Assembly: GCF_000003815.2 (NCBI RefSeq) | Contig: NC_049992.1 | Span: forward strand, 9,051,671-9,115,670 | DNA from: Branchiostoma floridae | Taxonomy: Eukaryota; Chordata; Leptocardii; Amphioxiformes; Branchiostomatidae | Length of the DNA stretch: 64,000 nucleotides | Reading direction: 5' to 3' | Shown: piece after piece, positions 21,419 to 54,000 of the stretch | How the letters are laid out: every line of letters begins with the position of its first letter | Numbering within the stretch: position 1 is the stretch's first letter | Notes under the pieces: generated by a model | Told to the model about the DNA's origin: nothing | Seen by the model: only the letters and a program-made list of their open reading frames with translations | Databases searched by the model: none | Translations under genes and position numbers: made by a program

Positions 21419-24400
21419 TTATTTCTTTCGTTTCTTCCTGCCCTTGTCCAGATGTTGGATGACGGCCTGTGCATCCTCCTCTCTCTCCCGCATCCTTCTG
21501 TCCATCTCCTCAAACTGTCGTCTCAGCTGGGAGCGCACACGCGCCGACTCCTCACGCTCTCGCTCCTACCACATGCAAACAATTGTTATAGTACACTTTA
21601 AGAACAAACTAAAGAGACGATACTAATTTCTGTTATTGAATCTTCAGCTGACGCAAAATACAAGACGTTTAAGACAATTAGAAAACATAATTTACTTAAA
21701 GTTGTAACTACATGTATCAAACAATAATGCAAAAACTTTTGGTCAGTTTGAATATGGAAAACAATAGGAGTGTGGGCAATGCTACATGTAGTTTAGAGTC
21801 AACTCTTCTAAGTTATGATGAGAAAAAGATGTCGCTGTACATTTAGCCATGTTGAAAATGAAATACAAGGTGTAAAATTATTTAGTTTTTTAAGATGTTC
21901 AGTGTTTTGAACATTCAGAGTGACCCGTTAATATACGAGGGGCGTGCAATAAGTAATGGTCCTGACCCACTTCCAGTTGTCTGATCTAAATGAAATTTTG
22001 TATGTGTAATAATTCATATCTCTATGGGTTATGTTGCAAAAGACAGCTCTGAACTAATTGTGGTTTCTGATTTACTGGTGTTTGAACTTAGTCAGGTGCG
22101 AAATGGACCAGGTGTGAAATGGAACCAGTTGAGTGTCGCGCAGTGATCCGGTTTTTGTATTTGAAAGGACGCACACCAAAGAAGACTTTTGATGAAATAA
22201 ATGAAACTTATGGTGATGATGCCCCATCATATGACCTTGTAAAACGCTGGCATCCTGAATTCAAACGTGGCTGGAAGTCTGTGGAAACAGCTCCCAGACC
22301 TGGTCGTCCCTCTTGTGCCATTGATGAGGCATCAGTTGGAGGACCAACCTGGGGTGTCCTACAAAATCGGTGTCCAGAGCTGCATCAAACGATGGGAGAA
22401 ATGCATAACTCTGGGTGATTCCTATGAAGAGAAAGACTAATAACTGTGCCAAGTTTCATTAATCTCCTGCTATGGGAAATGGGTCAGGACCATTACTAAT
22501 TGCACGCCCCTCGTATCATGATACAGTCATCTTACTTTGAGGAACACAATGAAGGAGAAACACTTCTCACCAGTCTGCCCAGCTTACTCCTGAAGTCCCT
22601 TTCCTCTGCCTCTGCCTTGGCCTGTCTCCTTTCTGCTTGTGCCTTAACATGTGGACAAGGATATGAAATACATTTACAAACTGTAAGTGAATGTTATTAG
22701 TAAAGATGCAGAAAAAGAAAAGATTCATATTACTAAGAAGTATAAGTCAATGGGAAATGAATCTATTTGATGGATAACTCTCAAAACCACAAAGGATTTT
22801 CCTTGCAATCGGTAGGCTGTGAGTTCAATCCTTGGGTAATTCATACCAAAGACCTTAAGATGGAACATGTACTGCTTTCTCTGCTAAGAACTTGGCATTT
22901 GTGAAAGAGTATGGGAGTTAAGCACACACCACTACCAGAGCCCTGCTGTAATGATTGCATAAAGTCATCATGATGGAGATCGGTACCTCAATAGGCACCA
23001 TGTATAGTGTGAAAGGACTTAACTTTTGAAGCAAGTCTTAAGAGAAGCAAGAATATTTTCTCAAAGAGGCAACAATCAGCAGATTTTCTTTGATGTACAA
23101 TGTAGTACCTGTCTCCTCCTACCTTCCTCCTCACAGAAGCAGCTATGGCTCCATAGTCACCATGTACATGTAAAACTATATAGAGGAACTTTAAATTCTA
23201 AGTTGCCAGTGCCCAAGTCTTGATAGAAGCAAGAACATCTTCTTAAACAGGCAAAAATTTGCAAACTTAGTACCTGTCTCCTCCTGACTTCCTCCTCACA
23301 GAAGTAGCGAGGACACCGCCTGCTGGACCGGTTGTGCCCCTGCTGACCACAGGCTCCGCACGTGGTGGTGTTCTGTCGGGGGGTACCGGCCTGGGCACCA
23401 TCAGAAGTACTAGGGGTACCACTACATGCAGGGGTATCACTTCTATCACTTGTGCTTGGTCTGGATGTAGATGCCGAGCTCGAAGAAGGTCCCTGCAGTG
23501 GGTGAAGATATAAAACACAAGCGTGCAAACATTACAACAATTACGCATGTCTGAGATTTGACAGCAACAAATCTCACTGTTTCTCTAAGATTTGTTCTAT
23601 CACAAAATTAGTAGCTTTTTAAGATCTAGGGGGCCTCCATGCTATATAAATTCTGAAAACCACAAATTTCCTGTAGCACTTCCCAAATGAGTACCATTCA
23701 ATGTTTACAGTAGATTTAGTCATGACGCTAAAGTAAAAGCGTCATGACTACATATACTGTTATGTGTAAAATTGAACTTACCAATAATTCTTTTATGAAG
23801 TCAAAGTCACCTCAAGTTGTTTTGCTGAACATGGCTTCTAATGATTGTACAATGTGATCAACGTTTATAAAGATTCGATTTCCAAAAAAGGCAGGTACAC
23901 AATGAACGATTCTACAGAACACACAGTCATTGAATTTTGAATCGTGTGGCTTACTTGGTGTGTTGGTGGTGTCCATGTGGCATTTGAAGTACCAGGGTTG
24001 GCATCATGTGGTGGCAACCTAGACATTTGTTTTCATAAAAAGGACATGAAAATGTATCAAGTGATTGTGAACCTGATTCTGGAAAACATTGACCACAACA
24101 GGTGTTGAATGGACATCTAGAGCTGCTGGGCTTAGGATAACATTATATAATGTAAGACAAGAATGTCTTCAAAAAGAAAATCTATGTTTCAATGTTTCCA
24201 AATTTAGTTAATTGGAGTTTCATTAAAGCTATATAATAATTATAGCTTTCTTGTACAGAGGACTAAAATGTGTGCAAGAGAGCAGAATCTAAGGGAGTTT
24301 TCTCTACCTACCCTGGTGGGATGTCAGGAAGGTCATCATCATCATCATCATCCATGGTGAAGGTTTCAGCAGCAGGGGGCCCTGATGCATACTGGGATAC

Positions 24401-26941
24401 ACGACAAGGGCTTGATGCTGGCGTTGATTTGGAGGCAGCTGCTGCAGGTTGAAACAAGTGGTGACTGGGTTAGCAAATGATTTTCAAATTCTTCTAATAA
24501 GATCACATATTCTAATTCAATACACAATATACATGTATCACCTAGCTAAGGTGAATGATTGCATTCATGCTTCGGGTCGAGGACCTTAAGAACGCTATGG
24601 GGGACAGAGAAGTCTGGAAGGAGAGTTCAGTTCAGTTCAGTTCAGTTCACCTTTATTTATACTGATAAGCCCTATCGGCCAACATGTAGGCCGTTCTTCC
24701 TAGGGGACCAGTTAAGGACCAGTTGAGGGGAGGTGTCACGGGAGAAAATAAATAGATAAACAAAATAGACATTAATACAGTTATTTACACTAGATACAAT
24801 CATAATATCAAATTCAAACTCATAATATCGATATCCGCTAGCAGTTCGAAATTAATCCATGTCGGAAGGCTCGCAAAGAGGGAGAATTCCGTACATCTTC
24901 TGGGATGACGTTCCAGACTGCCGGACCCGCCACCGCTAACGACCTCCTCACACACTCCCTGCTCACACGGGGCGCAATCAACTTCAGGGTTGAAGATTGT
25001 CTGGTAGCTCTAGCTGCGTTTTCGCGGCATGTCATAAAAAGTTCACCCATGTGGGCTGGTAGCATGTTGTTAAGCGACTTGTACACTACCAGGAGCTTAT
25101 GCATTTTGTGTATGGATTGTATATCTTTCCACCCAAGGAGATGGTGCACTACAGTAGTTGGAGTTCTGGACTGAACACCCAGAATAAGTTTACCCACTCT
25201 GTTTTGCATCCTCTGCAGTCTTTGGATTTGCACTGTACTGGCTCCATCCCACACTGAGGAACAATAGGTAATGTGAGGTAGAAAAATGGTTTCATACATT
25301 GTTAAGAGTGCTGCCTTTGTCACAAGTGGGCGGACTTGTCGCATCATGTTAAGTGCACGCTTCAGTTTGCTTAACACGGTCTCTACATGCATGTCCCATT
25401 TAAGTTCTTTATCCACAGTAACACCTAGATACTTATATGCTGGGACTACGTTCAACATGTCATTGTTTATGTGAACGGACAATTTGTGTGTGTTCAAGAG
25501 CCGTTTGTTGGTTCCAATGAGCATTGCTTTGCATTTGTTTGCATTTATTGATAGGCTATTGGCAACAAACCAGTTTGACAGTCTGTCTAGGTCAGATTGT
25601 AAAGCAAGTTGAACACTTGCTAAGTCAGGATGACTAACATAAAGTATAGTGTCATCAGCATATAAAGCAATATGGCATTTACATACACAGTTGGGCATAT
25701 CGTTCACATAAATTAGATATAACAGAGGGCCTAGTATAGAGCCCTGGGGGACTCCATAATTAACTGTACAAAAATCTGATGTATGACCATTGACTGAAGT
25801 GCAGTGGGATCGCCCAGACAGATAGGACTGGAACCACTTAGCGGACTGACCAATTATACCATAGGCTGACAATTTTTGCATAAGGATACTATGATCTATG
25901 GTATCGAAGGCCTTGGACAGGTCAATAAAAATTGCACCTGTGATGTTTCCATTGTCAATTGCCTTATACCACTCCTCAGTAACAAGGTGTAGGGCAGTTT
26001 CAGTCGAATGTTTCCGACGGAAACCAGATTGTCTGTCAGACAGCAGGTTATTTTCCGTCAAAAACTGATAAACTTGTATGTGAACTGCACGTTCAAGGAT
26101 CTTAGAGACTGCCGGTAGGATACTGACCGGTCTATAATTACCCGCCTCCGTTCTGTCCCCAGCCTTGAAGATTGGCACAATCCGTGCTTTTTTCCAGTCT
26201 GTGGGAAATTCTGAGGTTAACAAGGACAAATTCATAATGGAAGTTAATGATGGTGCAATGACAGGAGCAGCTGCTCTAAGCAGGCGACAGTTTAGCCCAT
26301 CCAGCCCACTGGCTTTGTTGACTTTCATGGTTAGGAGTTCATTCAAGACAAATGATTCAGAGATGGGTTGGAAACTAAACATAACCTTACTGTGTTGCAG
26401 AAACTGCAAAGGGTGAAAGAGAGACGTGCATCTCTGTATCATAGCAGCTAATTTGCCTGCTGCATGGCCAAAAAAGGAGTTAAGTTCTCTGGCTATAGCA
26501 GAGGGTGAAGACTCTACTTTACCATCACTGTTTACCAAGCTGGGTATCTCAGAGGACTTCTGGCTTCCAGTCAACCTATGGGGAGGGTGGACTTGGTCCG
26601 GGCAAACAGCCCGCGATGATGATGATTAACAGATAGCATATGTAATTCACTATATTCACTTTACTGTGGAAGAACATGGCATTTGTGATTTCTATGATCA
26701 CATAATTAACTTAAAATAGAATGCTACAGGTGACCGAAACCTCTGAAAAAAGAGGGTGAACTGAACTTGGGCAACATGCCCGAAGCGATGAATGAAAGAA
26801 CCATACAATATCCTTCCAGCTAGCTGAGTAGAATCATAGTGTTTATAGAAGGCATGCATTATTATAGTAACACATTGTACCTGTTGCTCCTACTGAAGAT
26901 GTCCTGTAGTGTTGTGCTTGGAGCCTTCTATAGTCTTCCAG
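21419..26941 (-). CDS. Nuclease gene exons 24-29: zinc knuckle and coiled-coil C terminus
   Basis: Exons 26881-26941, 24312-24441, 23955-24018, 23274-23492, 22571-22642, 21419-21565. Exon 25 has a run of Asp after ETFTM. Exon 27 is Ser/Thr/Pro-rich and then gives [17 protein letters not shown], spacing C-x2-C-x4-H-x6-C, the zinc-knuckle form known from TAF1 rather than the retroviral CX2CX4HX4C type. Exons 28-29 code a highly charged helix ([17 protein letters not shown], then [17 protein letters not shown]) ending KGRKKRKK, likely a coiled coil with a basic end. A CR1-like LINE lies in intron 24 and a deleted mariner in intron 28. Confidence 0.75.
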
Positions 26942-29900
26942 CTGAGTATGGAAGTACACAATGTCATGTATATACAGGAGCTATAATTTTCATACTACAT
27001 GTAGCAAGTTAAACTTAAAGATATGACAAACATTCATGATATACTTCTTTGTCAATGGAAACATCTCCATATGCTTGAAATTCAGTTTGACAGCTATTTC
27101 ATAAAATGAACAAAGGCTTTTAAACTAAAAATTGAATATTTATAATATTGTTTACCTGTTGTGCAGACCTCGCCCTCTCTCTTCTCCTTTCTCTGAACAC
27201 AGCAGGGCCTTCACTGGTTTCAGAGGAGCTACTGTTGGGAGTTAACCCTCTCTTCAAATTTGGACTACCGACAGCACTGCTGTTACTGCTAGTGCCTGAT
27301 CCTTTGGAATTCAACTCCTCGCTGAGTTTCCTAGCCAGTTCCAAGTCTTTCTCATATTGCGTCTGTGAAGAGTTTTTCTCTTTCTCCAGTTGCCTAGCTA
27401 ATGCTAAGTCCCTTTCATAATCAACGTCAACTTTGATTCTTTTTGGAGAGTTCACCACTTCTGCAGGTTTTCCGTTCAATTCCGCTTCTAGCTGTCTAGC
27501 TAGTTTAAGATCCTTCTCGTAATGAAGATCGAGTTTTCTCTTTGCGTTGGATGACTTTACGCCTCCTAAGACTTTCACTGCTTCTGTAGATTTGCTGTTT
27601 TCAGGTTGTAAGGCTTCCTGGTTCATATCTTCCTGTAGTTTCCTTGCAAGTTCCAAGTCTTTATCATTACTGCATTGCTCTTTCATTTCCTCCTTTTTTA
27701 CTTGGGAGGTATCCATCTCGCTTAACTTTGAGTTCAAATCTTCCTGTAGCTTTTTTGCAAGCTCAAAGTCTTTATCATGACTGCATTGCTCATCCATTCT
27801 CTCCTCTTTTACTCTGGAAGTGTCCATCTCACTTAACTTAGAGCAAGAGCGATCACAGTCGACTTTCTCTTGGAAGGCCACTCTCACAGCGAGCTCAAAA
27901 TCCTTTTGAAGATTTTGCTTAGTGTCTTTGTCTTTTTGAGACATAGGTAGGTTCTTTCCACCACAGTTACCTGCTATGGAAGCTGTGGAACTGTTTTCCT
28001 TTTCACTGAGCTTCAGTGCAAGGCATAGATCCTGGTCTGTGTCATCGATTTGAGATTCAAAATCCTGGAAATCTTGTAAACTCTCATTACGGTTTAGAGT
28101 ACCAGTGTTCCCACTTAGGGAGGCTGCTAGTTCTTTCAGCTTATTTTCATTGTCTTCCGGACTGTCGCTTTTTTGTCTGCTTGGCTGTAAAGCTTGACCA
28201 AAGTTTTCTTCAATAAATTCCTCTTCCTGAACACTGTTTTCCACAAAGGAGAAAGGTTTGTCTTGTAGCACTTGTTCAGTAGATATTGCACAGGACAAAA
28301 TGTCAGAATTGTTCTGGCCACTCGCATTTCTGCCTTGTCTTCCTTTATTGCTAACTTTCTCAGAATCCTTAACACTAGTGTTAGTGACTGTGTGGTTGTT
28401 GCTTTGTTGGCCCTGTGATGCTTTCTGTCGTATCAACTCCTCATCCTGTTTCTGAGAAGCTATGAACTCGTCTTTACTTAACTTGAGAGCTAATGCCAAG
28501 TCCGGATCAAGCTCTTCCTCCACACCAGTATCATTTTCCAAACATGGCTCATCTTCTCTTTTTACTTTGGAAATGTTTGGTTTATCTACTGCATGGGTAG
28601 CGGCAGGGCTAGCGTTACTTTTGGCCTTACTTCTTGTGACTCTTTTTTCTACACATGCCTCTGCATATCGTTTTTGGGCCATTTTTGCCTCTTCCTGGCT
28701 TAGTCTGATGGCCAGGGCCAAGTCAGGGTCCATTTCCACATTTTCAGTAGTTGAGTCCTCTTTCTCCTTGTTACATGTATGACTTCTATCATCACTACTG
28801 TTCAACATTTTGTCACTGTTTGAATCAAAAGGCATGGCATCTTGGCCATTTTGGCTTTGGGTGGTAGTGTCTTTGAGCATTCCAAATGGTACATCTACGT
28901 CGTTTTTGGACTTTTGCTGCATTTGTTCCAGTTTAGCTCCTCCTTCACAAGTAGATTTCCTTAAATCTAAGGACTTTTCAAACAGCCTTGAATCAGACAC
29001 ATCTGATTCTTTGTTAATTGCACTTTCTTGAGTACTGGTGTCTTCCACATTGAAACCATTGGTTGTACTGATAACTTGTTCAATGGAACAATGCGCTTTC
29101 TCACTGTTTGTCTTATTTGGTTTCTCTTTCTCAGTAACATTTGACGACAACTCTTCTTCTTGGGTGTCTGAAGAGCTTGATGTAAGCTCTAGCGCTCTGG
29201 CATCTTGTACAGCTTCGTTGCTAGCACCTGTATTCTGCGAATCGTCGCTGATTTCTATAGGATAGTCCTTTTCTTCCACAACTGACTCAACAGTGTCCTG
29301 AGAGTCAATGATTTCTATTGGCTCTTCCAGAGAAATGTCTTTACCAGCACTACCTTCAGTTTCAGCGACGGTTTCATTTACTTCCTGTGAATCAATGATT
29401 TCTATGGGATCTGTTTCATCTAGACTCTCGGTTGACATGTTGTTAGAGGTGTTTTCGAAGTCTTGCTGTTTGTCAGGAACAATACGGTGCTCCTGCATGG
29501 TGGATGTCTGTCTCTCATGTTCCATCAGACTCAAACGAAGAGCTTCTGCTAGCTGATCTTCCTCCTCCCTAAGAAATGAACAAATTTTCAATGTGTTGAA
29601 GAACAGTTTCCCAAGGTAAACTAAACTGTCCTTAAATTTAATAACACACAAATATTAGATGTACAATTCTTCTCCACATGAAACTCACAATGAACAGATT
29701 AGCTAAAAAGAAGAGCAGTATTACCTGTTAACATCCTCTGTCTTGTCTGCATCACCATACTTTTCTGTTGCTGGAAGGGTCTCTGCTTTGCTCAGCTCCA
29801 GGGCCTTAACATGAGAAAGATAAATGCCAAAACTGTCAATGGTAATCAAGAATGGATACGCATTTAGGCAAATATCAGTAAATAGCAAAAGCACTTACAT

Positions 29901-38900: not shown

Positions 38901-41900
38901 TACAATAACAGTTACTAATAAATACAATGACAGCCCTTCACAAACACTCACTGTCAATAGTACAATCTAAATGTACTCATCATCAAAATTACATTTGTCG
39001 TACAAAAATATCCATAAACCATTCACCTTGGGGGTGTAAGACTTTGCAGCCTTCGGAGCTTCTTCCACATCTAAAAGAAACCGTATATATTATAAGGTAT
39101 AAGACGATGTAAACAAAAGGAAAAGATATGTATTCAGAAACACAAGTTTGTAAATTTGTCTATGTTTGTATCAGTTTAATTTTGTGGTAGGAGTATAAAG
39201 AAGGCATTTGCTGACTTTCAGCTGTGCAGTTGAAACAATGATATCACAACGCAAGGCACATAACATGTTAACTGGGTCATGATTTAAAAAACAAACATAA
39301 AGAGTTAAAACAAAACGAATATTTCAAGATTCACAGTACTTAAGAAAGGCATTAGCAATAAAATAAATCTCGACGAGTACAATCCAATTCATTCTTAAGC
39401 ACTAAGCAAGGAGTCAAATGATTGTACTTATAATCAATTGCACGGACTACTTGCCAGTGAATTTCGCGAAATTATCCGGCTGGTGCAATAATGAGTTATG
39501 AAGCTAGACTGCACCAGTTTGGGATTTGGGGACTCCATGTACATGTAGTTAACAGAAGTGTGCTTTAATCAGTTGTGCAATTAACTGGCATCTACTGTAA
39601 TAGATTATGGGCACCTACTGTATCATTAACAAGCTGAAAGACAAGATAAATGATGAGACCTTGGATATTGTGATGTCTTCTGGCTCTTCCCTGATGTAAC
39701 CTGTCACAACACGGCTGACACAGTACCAGCCCTCCTTCACACTGGATGTACAATTAAGTAAGGTAAATAAGCGAGAACATGAGTTCACACATTGTACCTC
39801 TATGAAATATTTGGAGATTTTGAAAGAAAAAATTATTCAAATTTGTAAAATCCATTCATGGTAATGTTTATGTCATCATTATTTAGTTAGTACAAAAAAA
39901 GTTAAGTCTTTATGATGAATCAATCCAATGATATAGTGAAAACATGCACTGCTGTTTTAGAAGGTATCATTGCAATGCTACAGCTACACATGTAATACAC
40001 ACATTTGAGTGTGCATCACTGCAACTATGAAGTTGCAAGAGAATGCTTCATTGCAATAATAAGTTACAGGAGAGTGCACCATTGCAACTAAGAAGCTGCA
40101 ATATTCTAAGGTAAAAATATTGTGAGGCTCTGCTTGTTCTGGTTGATACAATAATCCTTTGACTATTTGTGTGACTTCTTCATGATATAGGGAGGAACAG
40201 CATTCTTGTACAGCTTGACTTTCTTTTGGTAGACATCCACAATGTTTTGCAGACATCCACAATGTGTTGCAGGAGAAGATACATGTACACAAGTATAGAT
40301 CCTCGTGATTGCTTGGGTCAACCATGGCATCGGAAGTGAGTGTGGAATCGTTGTCACCTCTGCCGCCGCCATCTTGAATCAATCTTGACCTTCGTTTTTT
40401 ACAAATCATACTAACTTACTTATTTACTTTGGTTGAGTTCCTACCCACCTACCCAATACGTTTTTATCATTAACATCCATCCAAAGCTTCTTTTGAGTTG
40501 AATGGAAATAAACACAGCAACATACAAGCAAACGGCGAACCAAGCAGTAGGACATACTGTAAAAACACTGAAGTCCTCTGGTTAAACACAAACAAGCCAG
40601 TCGTCTCTTGTACGAGTAATTAGTTGTGACCTTACATGTGCCTTCCCAGGTCATTGAGTGAACTTTCACCTTTCTGACGTCAGTTGTTCAACTTTGACAT
40701 TTTGCCTCAAGTAAAGTTAAGAGACAGGTTAACCGGTTAGACTGCATTTACAGACATTACTGACTGACAGATCAGCACTGTAAGCTTGAAAAGTTCTAAC
40801 ATTGTCTCGCAGGTGGGAATATTTTACTGTACAGATTTTAGGTGAAGGGATGAAGCTGTCTTCTGTCGCTATGAACAGGGTTGAAAAGCTACATAGAAGG
40901 TTATTACACGTATATACACATTCAAATTTTAGACAGCATGCACGAATGTTTCCTGAAGATTATATGCAAAACAAACAAAATAGTGTTCTACACTTACTGA
41001 CAGAAGACATTAGCCTAAATGAATTCAATTGGTGGGTTAAGTCATAGATGTTGTAGTCCAGCTACATGTATGTCTTATAGTTTGGGCGAAAAGACATGAG
41101 CGCAAAACAACGTAGTATTAGAGCCGAGTAATGTCGCATTGGAGCCACTAGGGTTAATTATGTACCCGTTGTTCGTACGTCGTAGTTGGAGGAAGTACGT
41201 CGTAAATGAATTTTGTTTGGAAAAGAAAGCCACACTGTGACTGTGATGTGTAGTCCCAGCGAAAATAAATGCACATAGATAAAATAAAATAGATGTACAG
41301 TAAGCAATTATCCGCAGCGTTACACGACTTTATTGCAAAGCTTTTGAATTCCCTGTCTGGCTCATAGAATATATTACTTACTAGATCTTTGTATTTTCCA
41401 CAGATTCACAACAACAATAGTACATAGAACAGACAATAGACAAAAATACATCGACATGGAGTCTAAACCCGCTCTTCTCGCAGTCTGCTTAGCTGTGGTT
41501 TCCGTGTTCATCACCCAACATGGACGGGTTAGAGGACAACTCCCCCCACCTGTGTGTCAGACCTGGAACTCAACAACTGTGGTGTGTACAGGGGATAGGT
41601 GGGAGGGTGATCCAACCCACGCGCGTCTAACGCATGTACCACCCGGCATCTCTGAGTCTGTCATCACGGTGGATCTCAGTTGGAACAACATTACTGAAAT
41701 GTACAACAATTGTTTCAGTGGGTTAAGATACCTAAAATCCTTAGAACTGTCTTATCAAAATCTGCATACAATCGAAGTCGGCACGTTCGCTGGGCTGGAG
41801 AATTTAGAACGACTTAATATATACGTGGATCGATGGAGAATGGTACCCCAGTATTCTCTTCAAAATGGACTTTTTCGAGATCTGCGAAATCTGAACTATC

Positions 41901-44900
41901 TGACCGTGCTGACTTACACAGGTACAGTCAGTACGGGGGTGTTCACGGGACTATCTAACCTGAGGCATTTAGAACTCAGTGTGAAAAATATCACAGATTT
42001 ACCAGATCACATTTTTGATTCTTTGACTTTATTGGAAAGTCTGAAGATAGAGGAACTCGACAGTACTATAAAAGAGGACCAAAATACCACCAATAGAAGA
42101 GTCCACAGCGGAAGTGGGCTGTTACAACGACGCCAGCTGTGGGCACCGCTGCATAACCTTAAGAAATTGAGTCTTCATTCACCAAGACGAAGTGACGTCT
42201 ACTTTGGGCCTGCATTTAGAAATCTGTATAACTTAGAGACTATAGAAATATATCCACATGACTATTCCCTCAATGTTCAAATGTTTCGGCCGTTGTTACT
42301 TACTCTGAAACATCTACGCCTTGGCGGCCAAACACATTTGGTAGAGCCCGGCCTTCTAAAGTCACTCCCACATCTGCAGACGTTGTACGTCAACCTAGGT
42401 CCAGACATTATGGACGTTTTGTCCGAACTCCGACACACGCAGATTCAGGAGCTGGCATTTGACATGTTGGAATCCAGAATAGACAATATAACATCTGATA
42501 CACTAGCGGGAATAAAAGGTCTGAAATACTTAAAAACTTTGCTTTTAGGTATTAGCCACATTGACATCATACAAACTGATGCCTTTGCGGGTTTGTCACA
42601 CTTACAAAGGCTGGACTTGACCTTTGGCGGCGGGTCGGATTGGAGCGACTTAAAGATACAAAACATGGCTTTCAGTGGACTGAACTCACTCACTCATCTT
42701 GACTTAACATATAACCAACTTTCTACTTTACCAGTGGGCATGTGTAAAGGACTGACCTCTCTTACTCATCTTGACTTGACACGAAACAAAATTTCTACTT
42801 TACCAACGGGTATGTTTGAAGGACTTACCTCTCTCACTCATCTTGACTTGTCATATAACCAACTTTCTACTTTACCAGCAGGCATGTTTGAAGGACTGAC
42901 CTCCCTTACTCATCTTAACTTGAGCCACAACAACCTGAAAACCTACCAAGCTCAGATTTCAGACACCTTGGACTATCTTGATCTCAGTTACAATAACCTT
43001 CAAACACTATGTGCCTCCAAAGCTTTAAAAACCGTGAATCATCTGAACTTGAGTCATAATGCACTGACAAATTACGTTCACAGTTGTCTACCTTGGAATA
43101 CTACTGAGCTTGATTTGCAGCACAACAAAATTTCAAAGATCATTGAATCATTCCCGAGTATTTACTGCATTAGGGAAAGATTTCGGGACCCTAAACTTTC
43201 TACATTCAAATTCAAATCATCTAGTAACAAGACATATGCATGTGAGCCATCTTTAGAAACACTTCGGCTGGATAACAATGAATTAAGGGAATTTTGGAAA
43301 TCACCGATCATGAACTTCCCAAACCTAAAAACTTTGACTGTTTCTCACAACTACATTCAGCGTATAGCAACAAAACAACTCTCTGGCCTGGTGCTGAACC
43401 GGTTGGAGCATCTAGACCTCAGTCATAACGAGATCAGCACCATTATGCCATCCGCCTTCCGTGGACTATCTCAGCTGAGAGTCCTAGATCTCAGATACAA
43501 CCATATACAAAACCTAGGAGAGAAAATATTTGAAGATTTGGGCAACATGAAACAGTTAAACCTGGCATTCAATTGGATATCTGTGATAGGGGACGCCTTT
43601 CACCGTCTGTATGGATTAAAGGACTTGGATATGAGTGGAAATAAGCTAGCTGTTTTGAATCAAACAGCACTGAGCCCTGTTGTCAACCGGCTGGAGAAGC
43701 TGAACCTCGCAGACAATCCGTTTCTGTGTGATTGTAACTTACTGTGGTTTGTTGAGTGGGCCAATGATAAATACGACAGGGTACCAAACTTCTACAACCC
43801 TTATCCTGACATCGGTCGAGGCTACAAGTGTACTCGTCCCACACAACTGCGCGGACAACGTTTGATAGACGGGTTGATCCAGAAACAACAATCCAATGAC
43901 GGACAGAATCCATCAGAACAAACATTCTTTAATACAATCTGTAGTCATGGATTCCAACCCAGCCGACTCCTGGCTTGTGTGCTCGCCTCTTCCGGCATTT
44001 TTGTTGCCATGATTACCATTTTCTTGTTCGACTACAACATAGGCCGTGTTCAGTACTACCTGTGGCAGTTGGCCAAGTGGAGGAGACCAAAGATTGGCGA
44101 AGTAGAGAACCAACAGCTACCCAGATACACGCACGATGCTTTTATTGCCTACAACAACCAGGACGTCATGTGGGTTGTAGATGAAGCAATAGTGAATCTG
44201 GAACCTGACTACAGTCTGGTCATACACGAAAGGGATTTTGCAGTCGGTGCTCCTATTGTGGAGAACATCGCAGATGCCGTGGAAAACAGCCGGAGAACTA
44301 TCTGCCTCATCACCAGGAACTTCCTGAAGAGTAAGTGGTGTGAGTACGAGTTCCAAATGGCCCAGTACAATATGTTTGAGGAGGGGGGAGGGAGGCGTCT
44401 CATCCTGGTGTTTCTGGAGAGGATTCCTGACAGGATGCTGAAACGGTTCCACCATCTGAACGCCGTAATGAAGAGGGACACGTACCTGACGTGGCCGGAT
44501 GACGTGCGGAAAAGGCCGCTGTTCTGGGGGCGACTGCGAGAGGCTCTGGGCGTTCCTCTACCCCGGAACCCAGAGCCTCAGCAGCAGGCACAAGATCCCG
44601 AACAAAACATCCCTGAACAGCTTGTACAAGATCAAAGACGGAACATTCCGGAACAACAAGCTCTTGGCCAGAACATTCAGGAACAGCAGGTATACTATCT
44701 GGAAAACAACATTCTGGAACAGCAAGAACATGCTCCAATCAGGAACATTGTGGAGGTGCAGGTACATGGCCCCATGCAGAACATTCCGGAACAACAGGCA
44801 CAGGACCGGAACATTCCAGAACAGGACGATGAAATGTTATTACCAGAGCCAGATGACCTGTGGTTTGGAGATGGGGATGACGTTCCTCTCCTACCACTGT

Positions 44901-47900
44901 AGCTTCTTCCTTGTTCTGAAGCAACGTTGAACTTTAGTTTCCAGCACAAAATTGAGCAGTGGATCGTAAATTGTAGAAAGTTGATGGCAACCCCCGTTTC
45001 TGTTAAGGCATGGTTGCAAAGCCCTGATGGAAATGATTTACCATAGTGCAGTTCTTTTTTTGGGATCCACGACATATCGTTAAATTGTTCACGTCACACA
45101 GCTTGTTCTGCAGCAAAGTAGAACTGGGATTTCCAAGACAAAATTGGACATATCCAAATTTTTGACCAACCAACTCCAGTCGCTGTAAAGGAAAGAGTAA
45201 TCCATTCCTTCTGTGACGTCGTGTTATGCAGATAGAACAAGTGACTGTAGATCCAGCCTTGTTGTGCTTTTACATGTAGTTGCTCCCTAAATTGCGGAAG
45301 CTGACAACAAGGCTGGCTTCCAGGCTACCAGGCTACCAGAGGCAAACGTCTGCTTGGAGAGAACTGATGGCTTGGGTATCTAGTCTCCTTCGCAAACTTA
45401 CGGAGCAGTGGCATTTATTGGGGGGGGGGGGGGCGTCAAGATACCATCTATCGGAATGGGCCCCTTCAGAGATCAGCTGTCAAAAGTTGTAGGGGCCACC
45501 AATCCGTCTTGAGATGAAATAGACACTATTCAATTAATTTTCAAACGTGCAGTGATATACCAGCCTGAAGAAACTATTCACAGATAAAAACAATCTGCTT
45601 CATAACTTAATATAATATTTAATGTAACATGTCAAAGATGAGAGCCAAGGCCCATACCTGGGCACAGTACTTTGTGGCATTCTCTGCTTCACAGTCGTCA
45701 CATGGTCTGGGCCTGGTCTGTCTCCTTCTCCCACCATTTCTTTTGTTGTTGTTTCCTCTGGCTCCTACTGCATTCCCACCCTGTTCAGCGGGACCAGCAC
45801 TGCCTGGACCATCGTTAACGGGCCCATCACCTGGCCCTGGGGCTAGCCAAGTGTGAGATAAAAAATCAAATGTATTTGTAATGGTTCTCCCAAGAATTCT
45901 GCAGCATAGTGGAGGGGCTGACAAAAATAACCCGAACCAACACGCTGCGCTTTTCATCAAGCCAAGTGTGAGATAAAAAACTAAATGTAATTGCAATCAT
46001 GAATGTCTAAACTTGATACAACATTGATTGACAGTGAAATAAGAGCAACTTCAGACATAAGTGGTTTGAAACCTCACTGCAATTGGAAATAGTAACAGTA
46101 ATATTTGACACCTTAAAACATTTTAAAAATGATTCACTACAAAGTAGCAAAAAATCACTACAAGTTGTTTGCTTTACAGATTCCTAAGTCGCAAATATGG
46201 CAAATGTCCAAATTTCCCCAGTTCTTGCAATGTTTTCTAACACTAGTGAATTGATCACTTCACATACATGTATGTTGTCTTCTACTTTTTTTAACCATTA
46301 TTTCAAGTACAAACTCAAAGATGAAACTTTTGCTTATCTATGTGCTGAGAACTTAAAGAACTACATCATCAAATGAATTTACAATTTAACACACCATTTG
46401 GATCCCTAAAGCCCAGCTTGACTGCATGACGGTGCACAAACGATGCCAGGGGGTCTCTCCTGTGGAGGTCAATGTTCTGAAACTCCTCCTGGAGCTCTTG
46501 TAACGCTGTCCGTGTGAACTCGCTCATGTGAACAGGCTTCCGACCATTGGTCTGCAGACATGTCCACAGGTCCTGTAATGTAGGCAGGTGCGGTGGCTGG
46601 TGTCTCTCAAAACTTTGGAAAAAGGACAAGAATATTGATTGTCTCAAGCATGTACATGTCATACCTATTTGCAATTTCTACAAAAACCTGATACAGCACA
46701 ACAGTGTGTAGCAGAATAAAATCAATTTGAATCAATAATATGCTAAAACTTTCAGCAAAGCAGTAAAGTTATTGGTTGTTTCAGGTCAAGTACAGGCCAT
46801 ATGATGAATAAAACACAAAACATTATTGACTGCATCACCAACTGCCTATCATTTATGGAATTCAATGTTAGAAAATTTTGGTTGAATTTGTGCTATTAGA
46901 GTTACTTAAACTAAAGCATGGATGCTGTAATGGCATGTGTGGAAATCAAAGTTTATAATATTTTACAGCAACATCCATATCATAGCGTTTGAACTTCCAG
47001 AAATGTAAAACTGCCCATTTCACCTAACTTCTCACCACAGCATGATAGGCATGTGCTTCTTTCCATGCCTTGCTTGATCATTCTGCTCCCTTGTAATGTT
47101 CTCCCTAGAAAAAATCTGATACATATAGACTCACCTATTGCTATTGAAGAGCACCCCAAGTGCTGCGACCCTGTTCAGGATAAACTGGTGGGTCCAGCAT
47201 CGAAAAAATCCCTGTACACATATATTGATCTATTACCGTCGCCTTATGTTGTACCATGTAAAAATGTCGTGCAATAAAGTTCTTTCATATAAAGACAAAC
47301 CTGTTGCTATTGAAGAGCACCCCGAGTGCCGCGGCCCTGTTCACGATAGACTGGTGAGTCCAGCGCTGTTTCTTCTGGTCCGTTGGGTTGTTGGCGGCCT
47401 CCTGCTCCACAGCGCGGAGTCTGATGTACATGCACGCCGCCCAGAATGGGTTACTACAGCTCTCCAGGATGGTGCCATCTTGAAGATTGGAGTATGCGAC
47501 AGACCTTAGGGAGAAATCAAAGTTTGTTTCTTAGTATTCTTCATTGCATTAATAACTGATGGGCAAAAAATATCCTTGTTCACAATCATACAGATTAATA
47601 CTAAGTAACCTCTTTCACAGAGGTCAGAACACATGTGCGGCAACAGGAATTCTTAGTTGATATATGTCAAAGGGTAAGGCCCTGAAAAAGAAAACAGTCC
47701 TTGTTTTGACCATTGTTTCGGTTTGCATAACAATGTCCAGACAGGTTTTGTTTACTTTTTGTGGGCCTTACCCTTTGACATATTACCTATAGTAGAATTC
47801 TTGTCGCCACACGTACGTTCTGATCTCCGGGAAGGGGGTTATTAAACATACCTGTCTTCATCCAGTAACTGGTTATTGTAGTACAGCTCATCTAGCTTGC

Positions 47901-48673
47901 AGTTGATCCGTCTTTTCACTGTCTGAAAAATAACAAAGATCCAAAAATCACCACAACAATGGAATAATTAATGTAGATGTGTAAGGCTTGTGTTGCATAT
48001 TCTTAGCCTCTACCAGGCTCCACAGGTCGCTAGAAAAATCGTAAAATTCAGGTAAATAAGACAGAAAACACACCAGACGAGTACAGTTTGCGACCTAGCC
48101 CAAATTCATTATTAACTCCTACTAGTACTAACTTGGCCGAAGTCCCCTTATTCGGCCAGGTGGGAGTCTTCTTGTGGTAGTGAAATCTTAAAATCCAGCT
48201 ACAGCAAAATTCTTTTGTGACTCACAAGTTTCCCACCTTTGGAGAGTGCTTTTTTGTCATGTCTTTTGTCAACAACAACAACGTGACCCCGCCCCCATGG
48301 GATTTACCCAGCGTGGTTTCACAAAGTTTGGTCAGCAGAAAGCTTGAGATAACGCCTCATATTAGACAAGAATAAAGTACTAGTTCAAAGACCCTTGCTT
48401 CCTCTGCTTCTTTCCCTTCTACACGATACTAAGGACTGCGAGTTAAAGGTGTTGTATCCATAGAAAATCAGAAATTTATGGTTCCAAGAAATCTTATTTT
48501 GAAGAAAGGGCAAACATAAATTATGGCGCCACATCTAACTCTTCAAGAAAACTTACCTCTCTGACGTGTTTAATGAGAACATCTCCTGGATTGTCCACAT
48601 CTAAAAAAGGAAGAGGACTCTCTGATGTCTTGGGATCGTATCGCCCCTTATTTCGGACATATATACGGACCAT
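21419..48673 (-). CDS. UBL/B-box/MUS81-like ERCC4 nuclease with SIM and UIM arrays (29 exons, whole gene)
   Basis: Whole-gene entry; parts are detailed below. Twenty-nine exons run from the ATG at 48673 to the TAA at 21419-21421, about 1,959 aa. Every junction has a GT..AG pair and a matching phase. Domain order (residues approximate): ubiquitin-like 1-75; B-box 248-295; winged helix 300-400; ERCC4 nuclease 420-545; HhH2-like remnant 590-640; acidic and RG-rich linker 755-850; SIM-like motifs 975-1040; UIM array 890-1730; TAF1-type CCHC zinc knuckle 1855-1880; coiled coil 1887-1959. MUS81 is normally about 550 aa and pairs with EME1 to cut branched DNA; the extra 1,400 residues here are ubiquitin/SUMO-binding and zinc modules. 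Likely nuclear. Introns hold a TLR gene, a LINE, a mariner and several MITEs. The gene could be mis-joined, but phase continuity and a B-box completed across intron 5 argue against that. Confidence 0.8.
21936..22513 (+). mobile_element. Internally deleted mariner
   Basis: Inverted ends CGAGGGGCGTGCAAT..AGTAATGGTCCTGACCC and complement are flanked by TA (21934-21935, 22514-22515). From 22119 the + strand codes the N-terminal helix-turn-helix of mariner transposase ([32 protein letters not shown]). The catalytic D,D34D core is missing: the sequence jumps to the C-terminal end ([14 protein letters not shown]) in another frame. Non-autonomous. It ends 55 bp from the donor of nuclease exon 28. Confidence 0.85.
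23107..23165 (-). repeat. Diverged copy of nuclease exon 27's 3' end and donor
   Basis: The end of exon 27 (CTTCTGTGAGGAGGAAG..AGGAGGAGACAG|GTACTA) and about 75 bp of intron are repeated about 165 bp downstream in the gene's sense. The copy keeps the donor but carries the CysGluGluGlu part in degraded form, so use as an exon is unlikely. Confidence 0.6.
23717..23750. repeat. Perfect 13-bp inverted repeat, 8-bp loop
   Basis: Arms TAGTCATGACGCT and AGCGTCATGACTA in the intron between nuclease exons 26 and 27. No link to a known element. Confidence 0.8.
24625..26628 (-). mobile_element. CR1-like LINE, 5'-truncated
   Basis: An open frame of about 578 codons (24838-26574, possibly open up to 26623) codes a reverse transcriptase with the usual blocks: [37 protein letters not shown] and the catalytic [10 protein letters not shown]. 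The apurinic endonuclease that normally precedes it is absent, so the copy is 5'-truncated near 26628 beside a (GAT)n run. The 3' UTR (24651-24837) holds AATAAAG and ends in four TGAAC repeats, a CR1/L2-type tail. The frame has no stop, so the insertion is fairly young. It lies in intron 24 of the nuclease gene in the same orientation. Confidence 0.85.
27156..29568 (-). CDS. Nuclease gene exon 23: 804-codon exon with SIM-like motifs and UIM array
   Basis: One 2,413-bp exon. It opens with a canonical UIM ([18 protein letters not shown]). Three SUMO-interaction-like motifs follow: two copies of PIEIIDSQ and one PIEISDDS, each hydrophobic-x-hydrophobic with acidic flanks. Then come UIMs [28 protein letters not shown] and [14 protein letters not shown], a weaker [14 protein letters not shown], and five more related repeats of the form [12 protein letters not shown], the last of which ([12 protein letters not shown]) regains the serine. 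The canonical UIM core is acidic-x-hydrophobic-x-x-Ala-hydrophobic-x-x-Ser. The stretch between is low-complexity, Ser/Glu/Lys-rich and probably disordered. Several K-rich clusters (KRKLDLH, KRIKVD) may be nuclear localisation signals. The acceptor (TTTCTTAG at 29570) and donor (CAG|GTAAAC) are both good. Confidence 0.85.
29725..33839 (-). CDS. Nuclease gene exons 17-22: linker, acidic and RG-rich stretch, first UIM
   Basis: Exons 33713-33839, 33327-33399, 32185-32267, 31490-31746, 30093-30336, 29725-29804. Exons 17-19 code a mostly helical, unassigned region ([26 protein letters not shown]). Exon 20 carries an acidic run of Asp (coded by a CAT/CAA-type triplet tract near 31586-31617) and then RG-rich sequence ([15 protein letters not shown]), a type often bound to nucleic acid. 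The exon 21-22 junction forms a [18 protein letters not shown]. Intron 18 contains a 20-bp minisatellite and introns 15 and 20 contain related DNA transposons close to the donors. Confidence 0.75.
29955..30045 (-). repeat. Fragment of the CAGGGCTC/GTGCACC transposon family
   Basis: Short stretch with GGTGC..AGTGCACC..GTAGGTGCAC..TTGGGTGC strings like the subterminal parts of 2742-3965 and 34581-34939. Its ends are not preserved. Confidence 0.4.
30497..30670. repeat. Foldback repeat with nested perfect palindrome
   Basis: Outer arms of 21 bp (30497-30517 and 30650-30670) read ATATAGGAGAATTCTTGTAC and complement. Inside the right half is a 45-bp perfect palindrome (30610-30654, 22-bp arms around one T). 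The left part (30497-30612) is similar to 61285-61400, so it is a dispersed family. Confidence 0.75.
31131..31476. mobile_element. Short DNA transposon, CAGGGCTC family, 5-bp target duplication
   Basis: Element 31136-31471 with ends CAGGGCTCAAAATAC and TATTTCAAGCCCTG and flanking AATAC (31131-31135, 31472-31476). The interior is full of GTGCAGGTA strings in both directions. It ends 13 bp after the donor of nuclease exon 20. Confidence 0.8.
32420..33150. repeat. 20-bp minisatellite
   Basis: About 36 units of ATGCTTTCCCTGGTGCTGAA or ATACTTTCCCTGGTGCTGAA, nearly perfect from 32880 to 33120 and more diverged toward 32420. It lies in intron 18 of the nuclease gene. Three units make 60 bp, so the minus strand stays open for 146 codons by periodicity. 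Confidence 0.9.
33988..39741 (-). CDS. Nuclease gene exons 6-16: B-box second half, winged helix, ERCC4 nuclease
   Basis: Exons 39660-39741, 39027-39070, 38656-38696, 38353-38453, 38172-38256, 37383-37496, 36760-36955, 36293-36385, 35533-35625, 34959-35079, 33988-34132. Exon 6 ([16 protein letters not shown], then paired His) completes the B-box begun in exon 5. Exons 7-11 read like the MUS81 winged helix ([39 protein letters not shown]). Exons 12-13 hold the ERCC4 signature: LLVDSKE, VGDFLW, then VERKTWDDL, with the acidic residues and ERK triad in place. Exon 14 ([13 protein letters not shown]) and exon 15 ([10 protein letters not shown]) match the following MUS81 strands. Exon 16 ([22 protein letters not shown]) looks like a reduced HhH2. 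An active endonuclease is expected. The MUS81 N-terminal HhH is absent. Confidence 0.8.
34576..34944. mobile_element. Short DNA transposon, CAGGGCTC family, 5-bp target duplication
   Basis: Element 34581-34939 with ends CAGGGCTCGAAATTC and GTATTTCGAGCCCTG, flanked by GTGTG on both sides (34576-34580, 34940-34944). Its terminal 100 bp closely match the element at 2742-3965. It ends 14 bp after the donor of nuclease exon 15. Confidence 0.85.
35690..35778 (+). mobile_element. LINE 3'-end fragment
   Basis: The string GCCACGCCGTTCTGACAAATAAACC followed by TTTGATTGATCGATTGATT looks like the 3' end of a CR1/L2-type LINE with its short tandem tail. No coding part remains. It is just upstream, in gene sense, of nuclease exon 14. 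Confidence 0.4.
35844..36055. mobile_element. MITE, TA target site, CTGTAAATGC ends
   Basis: About 208 bp between TA dinucleotides, with ends CTGTAAATGCAGAAATGTTC and AATGCATTTACAG. The interior repeats CGCGAA..TTAAA..CACCGCGAA in both directions. It lies in intron 13 of the nuclease gene and has a relative at 62819-63026. Confidence 0.8.
37647..38033. mobile_element. MITE with CCACACCAATTTTATTT ends
   Basis: Inverted ends CCACACCAATTTTATTTCTTG and its near complement (AAATAAAATTGGTGTGG) about 390 bp apart, matching for about 35 bp. The interior is T-rich with no reading frame. A target duplication was not clear. It lies in intron 10 of the nuclease gene. Confidence 0.65.
39434..39600. repeat. 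Dispersed repeat shared with 4416-4565
   Basis: Second copy of the family described at 4416-4565; here it contains TTGCACGGACT..ATTATCCGGCTGGTGCAATAATG and ends TGTGCAATTAACTGGCATC. It lies in intron 6 of the nuclease gene. Confidence 0.5.
40358..40372 (-). CDS. Possible alternative first exon of the nuclease gene
   Basis: The minus strand reads CAAGATGGCGGCGGCAGAG|GTGACA: an ATG in a typical metazoan start context, four more codons (MAAAE), then a donor. Phase 0 would fit exon 6 at 39741. Such a transcript would lack the ubiquitin-like part and half of the B-box. The call rests only on the start context, donor and phase. Confidence 0.25.
40373..41455. other. 5' flank of the TLR gene
   Basis: No coding exon is supported. 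TTTTCCACAG at about 41394-41403 would be a good acceptor for an intron in the TLR 5' UTR, with the 5' exon somewhere in 40700-41300. Confidence 0.4.
41456..44902 (+). CDS. Toll-like receptor, single coding exon, with Gln/Pro/Glu-rich C-terminal tail
   Basis: An uninterrupted 1,148-aa frame. Signal peptide ([13 protein letters not shown], residues 1-28). Leucine-rich repeats from about 70 to 780; three in the middle (42690-42910) are nearly identical at DNA level (24-aa unit [19 protein letters not shown]), a recent duplication. A single LRRCT ([13 protein letters not shown]) just before the membrane makes it a V-type (single cysteine cluster) TLR. Transmembrane helix about 837-861. TIR domain about 891-1033 ([12 protein letters not shown]; box 3 FW). 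The BB loop reads [13 protein letters not shown], so the usual RDxxPG proline is replaced. A 115-residue tail follows the TIR with eight or so degenerate NIPEQQ-type repeats and an acidic end. It should sense a microbial or endogenous ligand at a membrane and signal through a TIR adaptor. The gene is nested, opposite strand, in intron 5 of the nuclease gene. Confidence 0.95.
44903..45657. other. 3' flank of the TLR gene, inside nuclease intron 5
   Basis: No exon is supported. A run of G at 45420-45432 and a phrase GTCAAAAGTTGTAGGGGCC (45480) similar to one near 62636 suggest a repeat fragment. Confidence 0.4.
45658..48673 (-). CDS. Nuclease gene exons 1-5: ubiquitin-like domain and first half of B-box
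   Basis: Exons 48557-48673, 47852-47922, 47301-47504, 46395-46612, 45658-45842. The protein starts [13 protein letters not shown]. Exon 2 to 3 reads [19 protein letters not shown], which fits the ubiquitin fold's late strands (compare the ubiquitin segment around LEDGRTLSDYNIQ). Exons 3-4 code about 140 residues of helical, hydrophilic sequence not assigned to a family. Exon 5 is Gly/Pro-rich, then basic, and ends [15 protein letters not shown], the first Cys pairs of a B-box. The donor CAG|GTATGG follows. The start is chosen because it is the first ATG of the frame and lies just after the upstream sequence rich in CACGTG/CCAAT-like strings. Confidence 0.75.
47135..47211 (-). repeat. Diverged copy of nuclease exon 3's 3' end and donor
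   Basis: On the minus strand about 67 bases (TGG ACC CAC CAG .. TTC AAT AGC AAT AG|GTGAGT) repeat the last 22 codons of exon 3 and its donor, about 90 bp into the intron. The copy codes [20 protein letters not shown] against [20 protein letters not shown] in the exon. An upstream GTACAG could serve as acceptor, but inclusion would shift the frame. Confidence 0.7.
47624..47823. mobile_element. MITE with about 80-bp inverted ends
   Basis: TCAGAAC..GTG.GGC.ACA.GAATTCT at the left is matched in reverse complement at the right, and the inner part ATATGTCAAAGGGTAAGGCC is a perfect inverted pair. About 200 bp long, non-coding, in intron 2 of the nuclease gene. Confidence 0.75.
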
Positions 48674-51079: not shown

Positions 51080-54000
51080 ATGGAGCACCGTCACCTGAAC
51101 AGGCTGTACAAGTGTGCGGAGTGTGAGTTTACTGTCAGCCACGAGCTGATGGTTTACGTCCTACGCCATTTCTTCAGGTGCACGTCCAACAAGTATGTGG
51201 ACGAGCTCGAGGTGTGGTCACCTCCCCATCTCAAGATTAACGGCACTATGAGGAACGCAGGTCCGACAGAGAGCATTGCCTGTGAACGTCATCTCCCCAC
51301 GAGGGAAGAGGAACACAGCAGAACACCTGCAAACGCTTCTGACCACAGAAGAGTGAGCGAAGATAGCAGATTATTGCACTCCTCTCATTCATCCACAAGG
51401 CAGGAGGAAGAAAGCAGAACATTTGCAAACACTCATACCCACAGGAGGGCAAGTGAAGACAGCAGAGCATTGCACACTTCAAACATTCACAGCCAAAGAG
51501 GAGTCCAAAATGTCAATGCTCACAGCTATGGGGGAGAAGACAGAGCTACCAGTACACATGTCAGCAAAGGAACTGAAGTTTCAGATGTGACACCTGTACA
51601 GGTTACAAGCATGACGGGTTCCCCCATGGTATGGATAGTGCAGCCTAATGCAAATACACAACAACAGATGTGGCCGAAAACGTCTTCATCTTCTAGTGTT
51701 TCTTCGCGAGCAGAAATGCCAAAGCCTGTGCACAGGCACATTGTTCTTCACGAAGAGATGCCTCCTGAAGGGAGTGGCCAGGGCAGACAACAGGAGAACC
51801 AAGCTGAGAGAAGGCAGACTTCACATAACAGTGAAACAGAGGCGGGGGACCTCTGTGAAGAAGAAGATGATGAAAATGAGGAAGGTAAGCAAAAATGAGG
51901 AGGGCAAGTAGTATATACATGTATGCCTGATTGGTACAGTAAACATATCAGCATTTATGTCTTGGTATGAAATTCATATTCCTGTTAGTTAAAAAACTGC
52001 TTCACAGTTAGTACTTGTATAATTAACTCTCAAAATTACACTGGGGGCCATAATACTGCCACATAAAAAAATAGACGAATTTAAATAGATGTGCCAATGA
52101 AGTATTAGTAGAATCATGAGGTATATACATATCAGATATTTAGGTGTTCAAGATAATATTGAGAAGGCCTCTATAACAATATTTTTGTCAATGTGGCAAT
52201 ATTATGGATTGTTGACTTGAGTTGATGTTAACTTGTTTTGTTAAGGTAATTTAGTCCTGGGACACTTGAAAATAAAGTCACTGTGCCACTTACTTTTTTC
52301 CAGTCATTGAGCTCAACCTGAGTTGCTCTCCTGTTCCGATGTGCAATCCCGCAGAAACCAATGACCAAATGGTAACCATGGCAACCACCTCACCAATGAT
52401 GAACCTGACACAAACTCCCAGCATCCTCCAGCAGCAGCTACATCAAAACCCATCTTTTGACAGGATGAAGCGTGGCAGGCCGCAGAAACCCCCCTACTCA
52501 ACTGCCGCAGATGCGGAGCAGCCCAAAAACACCAAAAGGATGAACAGGTAATACATTGATTAAAGACTTTAAAAGTAAGAGGGTGCAAGACAGTTGATAA
52601 CCAAAGCCAGGTACTAATTCTTACCTGAGAGAAGTGAGGAAAGTTATAAAGTGCGTTCCCAAGGGCACATACAAGGGGACTCAAACCTATGTCCTCTTGG
52701 CCTTGAGCTGAACACTGTACCGTTATACTGCGCAATGCCATGTAAATGTAGCGGTCTTAAGGTTCTTGGCAGAGTTATGGGAGTTCATGTCACCAACCAA
52801 TTGTTTGTTTCCAATAGTCTTTCTTGTTGACCTAGACCTAGTCTCACACTCTCGCGAGACTAGGTCTCTCTGTCACGATGTGAACAAGATGGACTAATAG
52901 CCATCAAAAATTTGGAGGTACATGTGTATACCTTTAAAAAGACAAAAAGAGTAAAATTATATTAACTGTGCTCATATATGACTAATGAATCTCTTCAACA
53001 ATCTCTCTTGTTGGTACTGTTTGTAGATGGGCGGTTCGAGTGTTGAACAGCTGGGCAGACAAGCGGAACAGGGAAGCGAGCGCCTCGTCAAGCAACCAGG
53101 ACCTGAAGCCCGTGCCGACTAACTGGGCTGCCATGACAGTAGAGCAGCTGGACCATTGGCTGAGCCAGATGGTTAGCGAGGTGCGGCGGGACGATGGACA
53201 GTACTACCCATACAACACACTGTACCTCATGTTAACTGGGGTTAATAGGTATGTATGATTATGGAGAATATCACATGGTGCATGTATATCCCAAGGTTTA
53301 TTCTCCTGTAAATGTGGTGGTTTTATGTTCGCAATGCTTCACCACAAACTCAAAACTGCTGCAAATTTTGCTGTTCTGTCTTTTCCCCGCCTATACCCTT
53401 TTGTCTACATGTAAGTGCTACATGAACATGTAACATCAGGAATTATTGTACAATTCATTGTACAGTATTATGATGTTTTGGAGCACCTGTACATGTTGTG
53501 GTGGTCCATACATACCATAGGTTTAAAGACTTTTGTAACATTTTCATTCTCCATATTTACGCTCACTTCCGTCCTTATCACTGGAGTAGGCTGTTTGTCT
53601 GTACTTAGAAAACTACTAATACGAGGGATCGCTGTTGTTGTTTATATCCGGGGTATTGGACGGTTGGTGCCTACCAGGACGTCAGCAGATTGGATTAAAA
53701 ATTGATATTTAAATTAGCAGATCAAATTACTGGTTAAAATGTAAATCAATCTTTTGCCAAACACCTGCATTTTGCCTACAAACGAACTTTGTTAAGTCAG
53801 CTACCTCTTTAATATCATCAACAGATATCTCCGGAATGACTGCGATCGGAAGGATGTCAACATTCTCGTTAAAGATAACGGCAGATTCCCCCAACTGCGA
53901 CAAGCCATGGAAACGCAGAAGAAGCTGTCCATCGAACGCGGCATCGGACAGCAGGAGGATAGGAGACGACACAACACAGAGCTTTTCCCTCACGGCATGG

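Follow-up and report, generated by a model that had tools for sequence, protein, structure and literature searches.

A candidate lancelet gene combining a diverged MUS81-type nuclease core with a putative ubiquitin/SUMO-reading tail

Main finding

A gene model on the minus strand of a Branchiostoma floridae contig may encode a single protein about 1980 aa long that would belong to the XPF/MUS81 family as a second, strongly diverged member beside an ordinary MUS81 and whose SUMO/ubiquitin-reading tail would recruit the nuclease to chromatin. We adopt this reading, which is built from sequence comparison, tentatively and with a confidence somewhat short of even. Most likely, such a protein would be a branch nuclease that possesses its own SUMO/ubiquitin reader, which MUS81 borrows from SLX4. 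The block from the B-box to the ERCC4 domain is well tied together, because the zinc ligands of the B-box are distributed over exons E6 and E7, the winged helix over E8-E12 and the ERCC4 domain over E13-E16; the tail from E19 onward is tied to it less well. Counted against the proposed explanation are the (HhH)2 region, which is not recognisable, the weak ubiquitin-like domain, the weak splice sites of E7, E13 and E27, and the five of six introns that do not coincide with those of MUS81.

Gene model and surrounding elements

The window, by which we mean the whole stretch of DNA analysed (64,000 nucleotides, C14:9051671-9115670, of a 513.4-Mb genome in 431 contigs), contains the gene at C14:9073089-9100343. 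The model was curated by hand, the exons being chained by reading the minus strand, and it extends from an ATG at 48673 to a stop codon ending at 21419; the strand and both end points had been placed correctly in an initial annotation of this DNA. That annotation had also described 29 exons with matching phases and about 1,959 codons. The matching phases still stand, the model contains no internal stop, and the counts are replaced by 30 exons (E1-E30, Table 1) and a coding length of 5949 bases, that is, 1982 codons plus the stop. All 29 introns are GT-AG, and the stretch 21419-48673 is free of N.

Table 1. Exons of the gene model and the domains assigned to them (window positions)
Feature	Position	Strand	Evidence
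E1-E3, possible ubiquitin-like domain, aa 1-79	48557-48673, 47852-47922, 47301-47504 (part 47456..48673)	-	gene model, weak ubiquitin-fold matches
Remainder of E3, E4, E5, aa 80-226, no recognised domain	part 46395..47458; E4 47036-47104, E5 46395-46612	-	gene model, Pfam
E6, linker and first half of B-box (CxxC.8.C, aa 274-286)	45658..45842	-	gene model, Pfam, PDB match
E7, second half of B-box; weak donor, alternative at 39614 in phase	39660..39741	-	gene model, splice scores
E8-E12, MUS81-type winged helix, about aa 326-420	39027-39070, 38656-38696, 38353-38453, 38172-38256, 37383-37496	-	alignment with lancelet MUS81
E13-E16, ERCC4 nuclease domain, Pfam aa 456-601, GDXnERKX3D	36760-36955, 36293-36385, 35533-35625, 34959-35079	-	Pfam, PDB, alignments
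E17-E18, position of MUS81 (HhH)2, not recognisable	33988-34132, 33713-33839	-	Pfam, shuffle test
E19-E22, linker, acidic and RG-rich in places; E22 ends with the first half of a UIM	33327-33399, 32185-32267, 31490-31746, 30093-30336	-	gene model
E23, second half of the E22/E23 UIM	29725..29804	-	gene model, Pfam
E24, 804 codons, with three SIM-like motifs (29244-29408) and, besides four UIMs, another five MIU-like motifs (27315-27770)	27156..29568	-	Pfam, patterns
E25-E27, linker; weak acceptor at E27	26881-26941, 24312-24441, 23955-24018	-	gene model, splice scores
E28, CCHC zinc knuckle	23274..23492	-	zf-CCHC_6 above Pfam cut-off
E29-E30, charged C-terminal region, RKKRKK then stop	22571-22642, 21419-21565	-	gene model

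When scored with a simple consensus matrix, 27 of the 29 donors and 28 of the 29 acceptors reach at least 2, compared with 19% of 1781 GT and 24% of 2056 AG on the minus strand of the gene, an excess that is no independent test because the exons were picked partly by splice score. The weak sites are the donors of E7 (0.2) and E13 (1.3) and the acceptor of E27 (-1.3); apart from these, and from three further acceptors (2.3-2.5) slightly below the lowest one of the ordinary MUS81 gene (2.9), the scores lie within the range of that gene. The alternative donor of E7 scores 2.3, lies 45 bases further and leaves the phase unchanged. E27, with its poor acceptor, is the least certain exon, and the zinc-knuckle frame of E28 requires entry in phase 0. 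On codon usage, the model frame outscores the other two frames in 27 of the 30 exons, the exceptions being E6, E7 and E28; the support is weak, as the codon table was trained on E24 itself and a nested Toll-like receptor.

An automatically produced exon chain of 2678 aa was set aside, as it had taken in pieces antisense to the Toll-like receptor as well as LINE reverse transcriptase. The receptor, of the LRR-TIR type, is encoded in an uninterrupted frame on the opposite strand inside intron 6 (window 41348-44902, plus strand; LRR_8 7.1e-83 and TIR 2.2e-17, 41471-44899), and the LINE-type reverse transcriptase forms one open frame on the strand of the gene in intron 25 (24841-26625, minus strand; RVT_1 4.2e-39). 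Intron 29 holds a Mos1-type transposase HTH fragment (22092-22415, plus strand; 1.3e-10), and intron 19 a minisatellite-like stretch (32420-33180, minus strand) with units of about 20 bases, which is open over 107-148 aa in all three minus-strand frames. The window also contains two DUF3504 frames (53796-54434, plus strand, 2.4e-10; 59731-60411, minus strand, 2.8e-17), which we take to be Crypton-derived, and a caspase match below threshold (15710-16240, plus strand; E 0.0017, 18.5 bits vs 21.4).

Nuclease core

The initial annotation had proposed a MUS81-type ERCC4 nuclease preceded by a winged helix, and had named an ERCC4 match that fails against profile models as a ground for giving up its reading. 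Pfam recognises the domain (E 2.6e-23) well above its cut-off of 24 bits, at 82.9 bits for the full protein and 89.4 bits for the fragment, and all four PDB matches found with the core at E up to 1 are MUS81, which bears out the assignment. The catalytic motif GDXnERKX3D of the XPF/MUS81 family (PMC5962103) is complete: GD, ERK and DD are invariant in a four-row alignment with three MUS81 sequences, and VDxKE, which among the three MUS81 pieces only the lancelet one covers, is common to that sequence and the window gene. The NCBIfam matches of the domain to archaeal Hef and Xpf are far below their cut-offs. In pairwise comparisons, the core scores 73.6 bits with zebrafish MUS81 (37% identity), 70.5 bits with human MUS81 (38%) and 65.1 bits with lancelet MUS81 (31%), compared with 35.0 bits for lancelet XPF, to which it is 31% identical over a shorter stretch and with about half the bits. 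Judged by these pairwise scores with MUS81 and XPF and by the PDB matches, the core is closer to MUS81 than to XPF.

The winged helix is without a match in Pfam, and its presence is borne out by the comparison with lancelet MUS81, where it scores 71 against a shuffle maximum of 51 (0 of 1000 shuffles reaching its score); MAFFT misaligned this region, and BLAST and the shuffle test were used in its place. The intron between E11 and E12 occupies the same aligned codon and phase as an intron of lancelet MUS81, and the remaining five of the six introns compared (two in the winged helix, three in ERCC4) do not coincide with MUS81 introns. One common intron in six fits an origin in an intron-bearing MUS81 with long or fast divergence thereafter, and could also have arisen by chance.

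Downstream of ERCC4, the (HhH)2 region, which belongs to the catalytic core of the family (PMC5962103), has no Pfam match and is not recognisable in E17-E18, where the score of the best alignment to lancelet MUS81 is reached by 54 of 1000 shuffles. At the opposite end, the N-terminal HhH, with which MUS81 binds SLX4 (PMC5344696), was not found when aa 1-226 were compared with the lancelet MUS81 model (first exon absent), the best match having an E of 0.62 over 19 aa. Neither point had been remarked in the initial annotation.

The ordinary MUS81 and other ERCC4 genes

Whether the genome also has an ordinary MUS81 had been put forward as a check, and such a gene is present on contig C1. A zebrafish MUS81 query detects four of its exons at C1:16331193-16332110 (E 2.2e-12 to 6.3e-4), and the rebuilt gene (C1:16329806-16336324; L004:2807-9325, minus strand) has 18 exons and 591 aa, its first exon not being found. 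It carries an HhH, a winged helix, VDTKE, GDF, VERK and a C-terminal HhH region (the HhH being named by eye), and its identity is 71% with zebrafish MUS81 and 57% with the human protein. The window gene, with 37% identity to zebrafish MUS81 against the 71% of the C1 gene, is not the MUS81 orthologue of this genome. The same query gave one place on C10 (E 3.8), which reads VDMREF plus a further 20-letter protein stretch and is presumably XPF. The genome searches with the ERCC4 profile and with zebrafish MUS81 did not list the window gene itself, and thus they can miss copies.

A single-sequence query found no relatives on viral contigs, and a query with the four-row alignment found three viral loci, L024, L025 and L026, the last of which equals L025 in match length and E-value. 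The ERCC4 proteins encoded by L024:4995-5687 and L025:4926-5663 (IMG/VR) are 230 and 245 aa long and lack the tail, and both contain the string ERKTWDDA, which is close to ERKTWDDL of the window gene. They were rejected as cases of the same architecture, as neither RCGL..YLVE nor DGFxVxRT was seen in them and the tail is absent.

N-terminal region

Half of the zinc ligands of the B-box are encoded in E6 and the other half in E7, with the 5.9-kb intron 6 between them, and hence only the joined exons form a B-box. This zinc-ligand site and its match to CONSTANS B-boxes in the PDB (E 9.4e-4) uphold the domain named in the initial annotation, which is nevertheless weaker than had been stated: it obtains 21.7 bits as a fragment and 9.8 bits in the full protein against a Pfam cut-off of 27, and the joined piece matches the ANCHR-like B-box at 2.3e-4 and the B-box at 0.0018, both below the cut-offs. 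The N-terminal 330 aa have genome matches at E <0.05 at this locus only.

The label of a ubiquitin-like domain at the very N-terminus is not confirmed. This region has no Pfam match, and the best ubiquitin-fold matches in the PDB are TINCR (E 0.51) and a ubiquitin variant (E 1.1), the region being in register with both, while an unrelated chain matches better (E 0.11). Its alignment score was reached by 114 of 2000 shuffles with ubiquitin, 1148 of 2000 with SUMO1, 12 of 2000 with NEDD8 and 0 of 2000 with the TINCR piece, which had been chosen by search before its shuffle test.

Putative ubiquitin/SUMO-reading tail

The SIM/UIM tail and the zinc knuckle of the initial annotation both hold up, with the UIM and the knuckle (zf-CCHC_6) above their Pfam cut-offs and the binding to ubiquitin and SUMO being predicted. 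Motif numbers, counted by pattern, are far higher than in 2000 shuffles of the same protein; of the three motif types, Pfam backs the UIM alone. UIMs occupy four distinct places (eight overlapping pattern matches; shuffle mean 0.002, maximum 2), MIU-like motifs give seven matches, two of which are also UIMs (mean 0.004, maximum 1), and three SIM-like motifs are identified by pattern only (mean 0.051, maximum 2). A fifth UIM is formed across the E22/E23 junction, where the joined 59-aa piece, containing two UIMs, obtains 21.8 bits against a cut-off of 21 with its best stretch over the junction. In the PDB, nothing matches the SIM/UIM stretch at E up to 1, and no PIP pattern was found in the window protein. 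The C-terminus, with its last residues RKKRKK, is basic.

Alternative explanations

The weaker connection of the tail raises the question of whether at least two neighbouring genes have been read as one, a B-box-winged helix-ERCC4 gene ending soon after E18 and, downstream in the same orientation, an independent gene for the UIM/SIM/zinc-knuckle tail. Such a division is suggested by E17-E21, which are without a bridging domain and in which the (HhH)2 is not seen, and by the poor E27 acceptor, and it has a precedent in a report that argues novel domain joins in lancelets to be gene-prediction errors, describes one fused lancelet model that was split by ESTs, and regards agreement between two lancelet species as no proof of a domain join (PMC4967905). 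AATAAA/ATTAAA hexamers are also present in several introns, including those at 30678 and 29642, although such hexamers are common by chance in AT-rich DNA. On the other hand, the phases agree through E17-E24, joining E22 to E23 creates a UIM, and no Met precedes the acceptor of E24 in the open frame of that exon; on balance, we regard two genes as rather unlikely.

If the locus is a single gene, its ERCC4 core might still be non-catalytic and, like that of FANCM or SHOC1, bind DNA or provide a scaffold, with a tail that assembles ubiquitin-marked complexes. Family members without detected nuclease activity are described (PMC5962103), and the unrecognisable (HhH)2 and the high divergence from MUS81 would be in line with this, but the complete GDXnERKX3D motif differs from the ERRX3E of FANCM and the ERKX3E of SHOC1 reported in the same source, and we consider a loss of catalysis to be improbable. 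The same divergence and the same unrecognisable (HhH)2 could point to a decaying MUS81 duplicate joined by chance to open frames, which is scarcely credible for 1982 codons without a stop that retain the catalytic residues, E24 alone being open over 804 codons (a chance of about 2e-23 at the local base composition). It is also very improbable that the gene began as a TRIM-like factor, of immunity or ubiquitin ligation, and then acquired the nuclease domain. The B-box would suit such an origin, as would seven long open frames at other places in the genome that match the B-box weakly (E 0.05-2.9) and that we take to be TRIM-like, and the LRR-TIR receptor inside intron 6, which may be accidental; however, the combination of winged helix and ERCC4 is that of MUS81, and a RING is not among the five families that Pfam lists up to E 10 for the full protein, which leaves ligase activity without support.

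Proposed function

Our preferred reading is a single protein in which the nuclease is addressed by its own tail. This tail, which carries three SIM-like motifs, five UIMs, another five motifs that are MIU-like and a zinc knuckle, would bind mixed SUMO-ubiquitin chains on chromatin by avidity, in the manner of RAP80, and would deliver the nuclease, independently of SLX4, to forks that are stalled or crosslinked or to recombination intermediates. An EME1-like partner would probably be needed for DNA engagement. The nuclease may be stimulated in cis by the possible ubiquitin-like domain, much as Mus81-Mms4 is stimulated in trans by Esc2 through a SUMO-like domain (PMC6316474); alternatively, the possible ubiquitin-like domain may bind the UIMs of the same protein and thereby hold the nuclease inactive. 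A more specific proposal, possible but doubtful, is a chain-gated nuclease that operates scaffold-free in lancelets, alongside the ordinary MUS81. In such an enzyme, the reading role of SLX4 would have been taken into its own chain, the SLX4 dock lost, and the ubiquitin-like domain set in cis against about ten ubiquitin-binding motifs of the protein to gate its activity.

If the locus yields a single transcript, it would mean that the path from a ubiquitin/SUMO signal to MUS81-type cutting, which passes through a separate SLX4 in the cited work, can be fused in one protein. It would also offer a natural test of how much of the role of SLX4 is recruitment alone.

Comparison with known systems

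The initial annotation knew of no described equivalent, in agreement with the open-licence literature searched, where, among the matches listed, no MUS81 with a B-box, a ubiquitin-like domain and UIMs is described, either in lancelets or as a paralogue. The window protein resembles MUS81 in its ERCC4 domain with GDXnERKX3D, the preceding winged helix, the GL..YLVE and DGFxVxR parts and one common intron. It differs in having a B-box and a possible ubiquitin-like domain where the N-terminal HhH is expected, in an (HhH)2 that is not recognisable, in a tail of more than 1100 aa after E18, and in its identity to MUS81, which is 31-38%, whereas lancelet MUS81 is 57-71% identical to the human and zebrafish proteins. 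As for the B-box, it matches those of the CONSTANS and TRIM proteins, but a RING was not found in the window protein and the plant-type B-box pair is absent.

RAP80 (UIMC1), the adaptor of BRCA1-A, is a largely unfolded protein that reads mixed SUMO-K63 ubiquitin chains by means of a single SIM and two UIMs (PMC7692841). The window protein shares the combination of SIM and UIMs in a largely unfolded chain, with binding predicted from the motifs, and differs in having three SIM-like and about ten UIM/MIU-like motifs and a nuclease in the same chain. In the SMX complex, ubiquitin/SUMO reading is likewise coupled to a MUS81-type nuclease, as SLX4 carries a UBZ and SIMs (PMC6316474) and acts on MUS81 via the N-terminal HhH of the latter (PMC5344696); however, two proteins are involved there, whereas the window gene encodes one chain in which this HhH was not found.

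Structure-specific nucleases that are recruited by motifs of their own include FAN1, with a UBZ and a PIP motif (PMC5648898), and Yen1, with two SIMs (PMC8986097), and the predicted tail of the window protein would place it beside them. FAN1 differs in its UBZ and its PIP, a pattern not found in the window protein, and Yen1 in having two SIMs compared with three SIM-like motifs. The nuclease folds of both enzymes differ from ERCC4. Taken together, the examples of SLX4, RAP80, FAN1, Yen1 and Esc2 suggest that the window gene may encode a MUS81-type enzyme with its own SUMO/ubiquitin-chromatin address tag, in which case one animal would possess two MUS81-type genes with different addressing.
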